A stretch of DNA of 35,054 bases. Source: Candidatus Rokuibacteriota bacterium (lineage in GTDB: Bacteria; Methylomirabilota; Methylomirabilia; Rokubacteriales; CSP1-6). Both the position numbers and the translations under genes were made by a program. Where the stretch lies: NCBI GenBank assembly GCA_003220675.1, contig QHTD01000061.1:1-35054 (forward strand), written 5' to 3'. This document shows, piece by piece, positions 1,784 through 34,487 of this stretch. The notes below the pieces were generated by a model that was not told where the DNA came from, did no database searches, and saw only the letters and a program-made list of their open reading frames with translations. Numbering within the stretch: the stretch's first letter is position 1; the number at the start of each line of letters is the position of its first letter.

Positions 1784-2137
1784 ATGGACGCTGTCCTTGC
1801 GCTGCTGTTCATCGCCGCGCTGATCGCCGGTCCTCTCGGCGTGTTGGCGGTGCGCGATCGCCGGCGCGAGTCCGCCGAGGCCGTCCTCGCCGACATTCGG
1901 GCGGCCGTCAGGCGACGGCTGCGCGGCGAGTCCCTGCTTTCGGTCCAGGTGGTGCCCGCGACGCTCACGCGGCCCGGGCGCGTGGTGCTCTCCACGCCCA
2001 CCGGCTACGAGTACCTGACCAAGGCCGTGTGGACGACGGTCGCGAGGCGCGTGCCTGCGGGCTACGAGCTCGTCGTGACACGTCCGAGCCCTGTCGCACC
2101 GGAGCAGAGCGACCGAGCGCTCCCGCGCGCGGCCTGA
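1784..2137 (+). CDS. small membrane-anchored protein, unknown function
   Basis: I do not recognise this 117-residue protein. Residues about 4-22 (VLALLFIAALIAGPLGVLA) form one hydrophobic helix, followed by a charged stretch with many Arg and then a soluble domain of about 80 residues with mixed beta-like segments (LLSVQVVPATL, RVVLSTPTGYEYLTKAV, YELVVTR). This looks like an N-terminally anchored protein with a cytoplasmic domain. An AGGAGG ribosome site lies about 6 bases before the ATG, and codon third positions are GC-rich, so it is probably real. It converges on the OsmC gene with only 12 bases between the two stops. Confidence 0.7.
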   Translation: MDAVLALLFIAALIAGPLGVLAVRDRRRESAEAVLADIRAAVRRRLRGESLLSVQVVPATLTRPGRVVLSTPTGYEYLTKAVWTTVARRVPAGYELVVTRPSPVAPEQSDRALPRAA

Positions 2138-2149
2138 CAAGCTCCTGGT

Positions 2150-2617
2150 CTAGTCGTCCTCACGGACGTCGCCGTCCCACTCGATGGCGATGCCACGCTG
2201 GACCGACTGCGACGCCGGGCAGCCCTTCTCGTGCACCTCGATGGCCCGGAGCGCGTCCGGCCGCTTGCCCTTCGGGACCTTGACCGTGTAGCGGACCTTG
2301 ATGCGGGTGACGAGCGGCTTGCCGTCGACGTTCTCGATGAAGCCCTCGACGTCGGCGGTGAGCCGGTCCGGCTGGGTGGGGATCTTGCGCGCCGCTAGCG
2401 CCCCGGCTAGCGTGCCCGTCATTCAGCCGCCGACGGCGGCGACGAGATGGTCGAGCGTGGTCGGCGCCTCCTGCTCCGGCTCGACGCCGTAGAACTTCTT
2501 GATGCCGCCGTGCACGCCGTACACCACGGGATCGGGAAAGTTCTCGATCCACGCGCGCCGCAGCGGGCCCTTGTCCTTGATGATCCTGACCTTCGAGACG
2601 TGAATCAGCTCAGCCAT
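2150..2617 (-). CDS. OsmC-family protein, candidate selenoprotein (in-frame UGA at codon 65)
   Basis: OsmC/Ohr-like proteins are thiol peroxidases that use a reactive cysteine and a resolving cysteine. Read straight through, the gene gives 155 residues, normal for the family. Residues 1-64 end in TTLDHLVAAVGG; codon 65 is TGA (2423-2425); residues 66-155 continue with MTGTLAGAL and later HEKGCPASQSV, which supplies Cys133. Relatives have Cys at the position of codon 65 (AVGGC...TGTL), so the UGA replaces the peroxidatic residue. A stem-loop resembling a bacterial SECIS starts 10 bases downstream. TGA is an ordinary stop in neighbouring genes (rpiA, greA), so decoding would be local. GGGGAGG precedes the ATG; the K+ channel gene ends 18 bases upstream, suggesting one operon. 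A conventional pipeline would report 2423-2617 and 2150-2422 as two proteins. A nonsense mutation is the alternative, but it would have to hit exactly this codon. Confidence 0.85.
2393..2412 (-). promoter_or_regulatory. putative bacterial SECIS element in the OsmC-family gene
   Basis: In the mRNA sense the sequence CGCTAGC pairs perfectly with GCTAGCG across a 6-base loop CGGGGC. The stem starts 10 bases after the UGA at 2425-2423, so the loop lies about 18-23 bases downstream. Bacterial SECIS elements bind SelB, lie inside the coding region just after the UGA and carry conserved G in the apical loop. The geometry fits; SelB binding is inference. Confidence 0.75.
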
Positions 2618-2635
2618 ACGTGTCCTCCCCGGAGC

Positions 2636-33257: not shown

Positions 33258-34487
33258 ATGAAGACCCTGAAGGAGATGCTCTCGGAAGCACGGCAGGTCG
33301 TACCAGAGGAAGGGCCTGAGCAACTCCAGCGCCGTCTGAAGTCGGGAGAACCGGTCGTCGTCATCGACGTTCGTGATCCCGACGAGTACCGCGACGGCCA
33401 CATCGAGGCGGCCACGAACATCAGTCGCGGCTTCCTCGAGTTCAGGGTCGGCACCGCGGTGACCAACCCCTCGACGCCGGTCGTCCTCTACTGCCAGACG
33501 GGGCTCCGCTCCGTGCTCGCGGCGAAGGCGCTCAAGGAGCTCGGTTACGCGACCGTCATCAACCTCCAGGGCGGTTACCAGAAATGGGTGCAGTCGGGAT
33601 TCCCGGTCGTCCGCGAGGTTCCGATGACGGCCGACCAGATCCAACGCTACAGCCGCCACTTCCTGCTCCCGCAGGTGGGCGACCGTGGGCAGCGCAGGCT
33701 CCTGCGTTCCAAGGTGCTCCTGATCGGCGCCGGTGGGCTTGGCTCGCCGGCCGCGCTCTACCTGGCGGCCGCCGGCGTCGGCACCCTCGGCCTCATGGAC
33801 GGCGACGTCGTGGACATCACGAACCTCCAGCGCCAGGTGCTCCACACGACGGCGGAGATCGGTAAGCCGAAGGTCGAGTCGGGCGCGCGCACGATCAAGG
33901 CGCTGAACCCAGACGTGAACCTGATCCCACTGCCAATGCGCCTCACCGTCGACAACGTCATGGACATCATCAAAGATTACGACCTCATCGTCGACGGCTC
34001 CGACAACTTCGAGACGCGCTACCTCGTCAATGACGCCTGCTACCTCGCCGGCAAGACCAACGTCCACGGCTCGATCTTCCAGTTCGAGGGCATGGCGACG
34101 GTCTTCGCGCCGAACGAGGGCCCCTGCTATCGGTGCCTCTACCCCACGCCGCCGCCGGCCGGCCTCGTCCCCTCCTGAAGTGAGGCTGGCGTCCTGGGCG
34201 TGCTCCCAGGAGTGATCGGGCTGGTGCAGGCGACCGAAGCGGTGAAGCTGCTGCTCGGGATCGGCGAGCCGCTGATCGGGCGGCTCCTCACCTACGACGC
34301 GCTCGGCATGCGCTTCCGCGAGGTCAAGCTGCGCCGCGACCCCAAGTGCCCGGTGTGCGGCACGTCTCCGACCATCACGGACCTCTCGATCCACGTGAAC
34401 GGCGGCGGCGCCTGCGAGATCACGACCGACAGCCACCGCGAGCGCGTGAGCGACGCGGTGGGCGCCCTGCCCAAAGCCGGCGGCTGA
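33258..34487 (+). CDS. moeB: rhodanese-MoeB/ThiF fusion, candidate selenoprotein (in-frame UGA at codon 307)
   Basis: Read through the TGA at 34176-34178 the protein has 409 residues. Rhodanese domain (about 20-117): [17 protein letters not shown] and active-site Cys79 in YCQTGLRS. MoeB/E1-like domain (about 125-405): [15 protein letters not shown] motif [43 protein letters not shown], and zinc ligands Cys290/Cys293 (CYRC) and Cys364/Cys367 (CPVC). Between them relatives read VPSC(A)[10 protein letters not shown]; here [17 protein letters not shown], so the UGA replaces the conserved active-site cysteine. A SECIS-like hairpin starts 13 bases later. The enzyme should adenylate the C-terminus of a MoaD/ThiS-like sulfur carrier and load sulfur from the rhodanese. 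The domain order (rhodanese first) is the reverse of MoeZ/MOCS3. A naive reading splits it into 33258-34178 and a fragment starting near 34200. Confidence 0.87.
34192..34211 (+). promoter_or_regulatory. putative bacterial SECIS element in the rhodanese-MoeB gene
   Basis: TCCTGGG (34192-34198) pairs perfectly with CCCAGGA (34205-34211) around the 6-base loop CGTGCT. The stem begins 13 bases after the UGA. It matches the OsmC hairpin in stem length (7 bp), loop length (6) and position, with G in the loop, though the two sequences are unrelated. SelB recognition is inference. Confidence 0.72.

Follow-up and report, generated by a model that had tools for sequence, protein, structure and literature searches.

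OsmC-like selenoproteins, as a kind, have been known since 2005, when three sequences with predicted SECIS elements were reported from the Sargasso Sea (PMC1088965). Five were found in the GOS data (PMC2398784), and reviews of 2022 and 2026 list the group with the motif UxxT (PMC9312934, PMC13188914). The NCBIfam model NF041052, 'OsmC-related (seleno)protein' (OsmC_like_Se), fits this published UxxT group. The peroxidatic cysteine of X. fastidiosa Ohr, Cys61, works together with Arg19 and Glu51; its disulfide partner is Cys125 (PMC5962072). The gene described here resembles the OsmC-like selenoproteins of the Sargasso Sea and GOS in its PF02566 domain, in a predicted UGA-encoded selenocysteine (Sec) at the column of the reactive cysteine, and in a predicted bacterial SECIS element downstream of it. 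It differs from the UxxT proteins of NF041052 in its motif, UxxG (U-MTG).

The window, i.e., the whole stretch of DNA that was analyzed, comprises 35,054 nucleotides from a Candidatus Rokuibacteriota bacterium. The OsmC-family gene is located on the minus strand (2617..2150), a strand assignment absent from the earlier note on this DNA. As that note had claimed, a single TGA (codon 65, 2425..2423, minus strand) joins two same-frame pieces of 64 and 90 residues. Translation of this TGA as Sec yields a full-length OsmC-family frame of 155 residues, MAELIHVSKV...LDHLVAAVGG-U-MTGTLAGALAARKIP...AIEVHEKGCPASQSVQRG..., which ends at a TAG stop. The residues around codon 65 are AVGG-U-MTGTL, and those around Cys133, the predicted resolving cysteine (codon at 2219..2221, minus strand), are HEKGCPASQS. 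Residues 49-147 match Pfam OsmC (PF02566) with 49 bits (E 8.6e-13, curated cut-off 27.5). The sole PDB sequence match at threshold was the Thermus OsmC protein 1ukk. Both of its cysteines align with U65 and C133, in agreement with the claim that the TGA (predicted Sec codon, 2423..2425, minus strand) sits at the reactive, peroxidatic cysteine while Cys133 is intact. An AlphaFold2 model based on a 36-row alignment has a pLDDT of 96, and in a fold comparison with the PDB the OsmC and Ohr structures come out on top, with TM values of up to 0.76. With a profile score above the cut-off, the OsmC fold and both redox positions, the protein belongs to the OsmC superfamily. A Shine-Dalgarno-like GGGGAGGA (2623..2630, minus strand) is located five bases upstream of the ATG of the full-length frame. 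The adjoining ORF at 1784..2137 (plus strand, 117 residues) has an N-terminal hydrophobic stretch and no Pfam match; it is conserved, with 76-80% identity in sister species. The neighbourhood of the OsmC gene is kept within the genus only and gave no hint of function.

UGA codon 65 is read here as selenocysteine with a probability of about 0.95, and 2617..2150 (minus strand) is thus a predicted selenoprotein gene. The case was made by computation, from conservation, decoding machinery, codon-level selection on the hairpin and fold; Sec insertion in the living cell is what we infer from these. At the ribosome, the hairpin downstream of UGA codon 65 would recruit SelB carrying Sec-tRNA, and Sec would be inserted at the OsmC reactive position in place of termination. 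The resulting product of 155 residues would fold as an OsmC/Ohr-type protein.

Homologues were compared at codon 65, a check that the earlier note had proposed. Among the best 80 homologues in GTDB genomes, which come from independent assemblies of several phyla, 74 have TGA and six have TGC at this column, so that it holds only Sec or Cys. Within the phylum, 95 genomes gave 66 matches scoring over 70 bits, and every one of these includes an in-frame TGA (one has a TAG as well); the matches next in score fall to 31 bits and lack a stop. Conservation of the TGA across phyla is far beyond chance. The gene selA is present in 84 of the 95 phylum genomes. Invariant columns in 36 aligned homologues include G34, H36, G37, G38, P47, D56, U/C65, G68, E95, Y110 and C133. 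Purifying selection acts on both halves flanking the TGA, with pN/pS values of 0.12-0.32 before and 0.18-0.28 after it. Two changes are required on an 85-row tree to account for the Cys forms (five from Terriglobia/Acidobacteria and one from Syntrophaceae), and each of these changes is nested within the Sec forms. All 16 Sec-form genomes tested contain selA, versus two of the six Cys-form genomes. The same family of genomes, including the sister species G037, commonly contains a Sec paralogue that is more distant (AVAG-U-MYGTL, 40-45% identity).

The same comparisons bear on other ways in which the TGA might be read. The ATG directly after the UGA, and the appearance of two small ORFs that ordinary annotation gives, are present as the earlier note had stated. 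They would suit two separate small proteins, one of 64 residues ending at the TGA and one of 90 residues starting at the next ATG. The two pieces are, however, the halves of one OsmC domain, and the Cys homologues form one continuous chain. Moreover, in many Sec homologues the codon after the TGA is CTG or CTC instead of ATG, and the Shine-Dalgarno-like GGGGAGGA precedes the first ATG, while no such site was found in the sequence context of the second. Two separate products are therefore considered very improbable.

Still less weight is given to a pseudogene or a sequencing error, in which the TGA would have arisen recently by nonsense mutation or be a base-calling error for TGC or TGT. One point change from TGC yields TGA, and TGC is the codon seen in the six Cys homologues, but the recurrence of TGA in independent assemblies of several phyla and in every phylum match above 70 bits, together with purifying selection that persists downstream of it, refutes this reading by conservation. 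The least probable reading takes TGA for a plain sense codon (e.g., for Trp) in the source organism. The frame is indeed open through the TGA, yet four other genes of the window as well as selA terminate with TGA. Since ordinary genes of the window end in this way, TGA is a normal stop here, and the sense-codon reading is refuted; the restriction of the column to Sec or Cys among the relatives and the Sec system in the genome also speak against it.

The predicted bacterial SECIS stem-loop (2393..2412, minus strand) begins 10 nt after the UGA and consists of CGCTAGC, the loop CGGGGC and GCTAGCG. The 7-bp stem, the GG-containing 6-nt loop and their distance from the UGA are present as described in the earlier note, and pairing continues beyond the stem at its base. 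G is present in the loop and the hairpin lies directly downstream of the UGA, the position of a SECIS element. The folding check recovered the hairpin, but its energy did not differ significantly from that of shuffled sequences: z was -0.95 against dinucleotide shuffles, which is unremarkable, and p was 0.055 against synonymous recoding/shuffle. The mean synonymous z was -1.06 across 75 UGA sequences versus -0.46 in 6 Cys homologues; the hairpin region of some relatives folds differently. The window gene uses CTA for both Leu codons that make up the centre of the stem; other genes of the same genome have CTA at 1 of 346 Leu codons. In 24 distinct close relatives, CTA occupies 31 of 48 stem Leu positions versus 2 of 139 Leu codons in the rest of these genes (Fisher P 8e-21, in a test that treats related sequences as independent). 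The A in the third position of these codons forms A-U pairs, where the commoner CTG would give G-U. This placement of CTA in both arms of the stem is far beyond chance. The stem is retained in most of 28 distinct relatives of the close group. Hardly any two-sided compensatory changes were seen among these 28, and base-pair covariation is uninformative because the codons constrain the stem. An Rfam search of the window gave no match at gathering thresholds. The SECIS argument rests on codon choice and conservation, while the fold energy of the hairpin alone is weak evidence.

The genome from which the window derives (4.08 Mb in 437 contigs, 97% complete) was searched for selA, selB, selC and selD, as the earlier note had suggested, and all four were found, although selC only as its 3' end of 43 nt. 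On contig C392, selA (596 bits) is directly followed by selB (368 bits). The selD gene (337 bits, C120:28738-29679) contains one in-frame TGA at the active site (AACAG-U-ASK), and its product, selenophosphate synthetase, is itself a predicted selenoprotein. An Rfam search of the genome for tRNA-Sec gave no hit above threshold; the hits below the cut-off were all ordinary tRNAs, among them those for Ser, Leu, Gly and Tyr. In genomes of the same genus, the tRNA-Sec gene is located approximately 1.3-1.4 kb upstream of selA; ARAGORN reports it as tRNA-SeC with the anticodon TCA, and the whole selC is present in three genomes. In the genome studied here, selA starts at base 1363 of its contig. This contig opens with TAGACAAACGGTCGATGGGTTCGACTCCCATACGCTTCCGCCA, which equals the last 43 nt of selC, is identical in three sister species and lies at the same distance from selA as the tRNA-Sec gene of the sister species. 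Given this identity and spacing, selC is present and was cut by the contig end. An absence of selC, as suggested by the Rfam search, was rejected on the basis of this comparison with the sister genomes.

Against NF041052 the window protein scores 25.2 bits (cut-off 95), and its motif UMTG departs from UxxT. None of the 36 aligned members reaches an E value under 5e-6 with this model, and an NF041052 search of the organism's own genome gave no match. Strong members of the model do occur in the phylum; they read ALAF-U-LMTQ, score 106-159 bits and contain one TGA each. On account of the UxxG motif and of 25.2 bits versus 95, the protein is placed, as a predicted Sec-containing member of the OsmC superfamily, outside the catalogued Sec-OsmC family. 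The statement in the earlier note that published surveys list OsmC-like proteins among the Sec families holds, with one refinement: the proteins listed are UxxT, a different OsmC subfamily from the UxxG protein of the window. No mention of the UxxG subfamily in Rokubacteria/Methylomirabilota was found in the article texts searched. One review refers to 63 predicted selenoproteins in a Methylomirabilota MAG, so the subfamily may sit in supplementary lists.

In G049 (contig C121) and G047 (contig C17), both of one related genus, a UxxG and a UxxT Sec-OsmC gene are no more than approximately 2 kb apart; the G049 pair is divergent and flanks a TetR-like gene. This proximity hints at shared regulation. 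An in-frame TGA also occurs in other OsmC-type genes of the phylum, which read ALG[SA]-U-xxxT, contain YARRKGW and match NF041052 below its cut-off. They are possibly a third Sec-OsmC group.

The protein shares its fold and two aligned redox residues with the OsmC family peroxiredoxins (TIGR03562; 1ukk, 1nye, 1qwi), and differs from them by the predicted Sec in place of the first Cys and by a score of 25 bits versus a cut-off of 85.8. With Ohr (TIGR03561) it shares the fold and a Cp/Cr pair like Cys61/Cys125 (PMC5962072); unlike in Ohr, the position of Glu51 appears to be Asp56, and the score is 12.3 bits versus a cut-off of 88.85. The assignment of Asp56 to the Ohr Glu position is from the 1ukk sequence alignment.

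The protein is probably a Sec-based thiol peroxidase with U65 and C133 in place of two Cys. This is the most likely function because these residues occupy both Cys places and Asp56 the Glu position. If the protein works like Ohr, a (lipid) hydroperoxide would most likely be attacked by the selenolate of residue 65; Cys133 would then resolve the selenenic acid by forming a selenenyl-sulfide, which a small dithiol or a thioredoxin-like partner would reduce. The peroxidase activity and its substrate are uncertain, because the canonical Glu position of Ohr is Asp56 and the equivalent of the catalytic Arg was not located in the model. It is possible, though not the favored view, that the selenoprotein is a thiol-disulfide or other redox relative of OsmC which acts on another substrate and is not a peroxidase. 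Such a role would be in line with scores far under the OsmC and Ohr cut-offs (25 versus 85.8 and 12 versus 88.85 bits) and with Asp56 itself; according to PMC4069020, another protein that had been described as a hydroperoxide resistance protein lacks thiol-dependent peroxidase activity. Against it stand the OsmC/Ohr fold and the invariance, at the Ohr/OsmC positions, of the two redox residues on which the two-Cys mechanism depends.

As judged from the sequences compared, UxxG is a separate, predominantly Sec branch of OsmC, outside the curated model tested. On balance, we favor the view that it represents a second, uncatalogued Sec-OsmC subfamily, which would be predominantly, and perhaps ancestrally, Sec across Methylomirabilota/Rokubacteria, Acidobacteriota, Thermodesulfobacteriota, Myxococcota and some Actinomycetota. 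The Cys forms would then be nested reversions, located in Terriglobia (most of them without selA) and in one Syntrophaceae. If true, this pattern reverses the usual picture of sporadic Sec forms among many Cys forms, and the nested changes from Sec to Cys offer natural pairs for asking what benefit selenium brings to an OsmC-type enzyme. Genes of the UxxG type are split and lost by ordinary annotation, and the single curated Sec-OsmC model tested fails to detect the subfamily, which appears mainly as predicted selenoproteins. The subfamily would add to the selenoproteome known from uncultured bacteria of soil and groundwater.

A second selenoprotein candidate is located in the window at 33258..34481 (plus strand). 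It is a rhodanese-ThiF/MoeB fusion (Pfam ThiF E 2e-84, Rhodanese E 5e-21) with an in-frame TGA at 34176..34178 and a hairpin 3' of this codon. MoeB is a listed selenoprotein family (PMC13188914).
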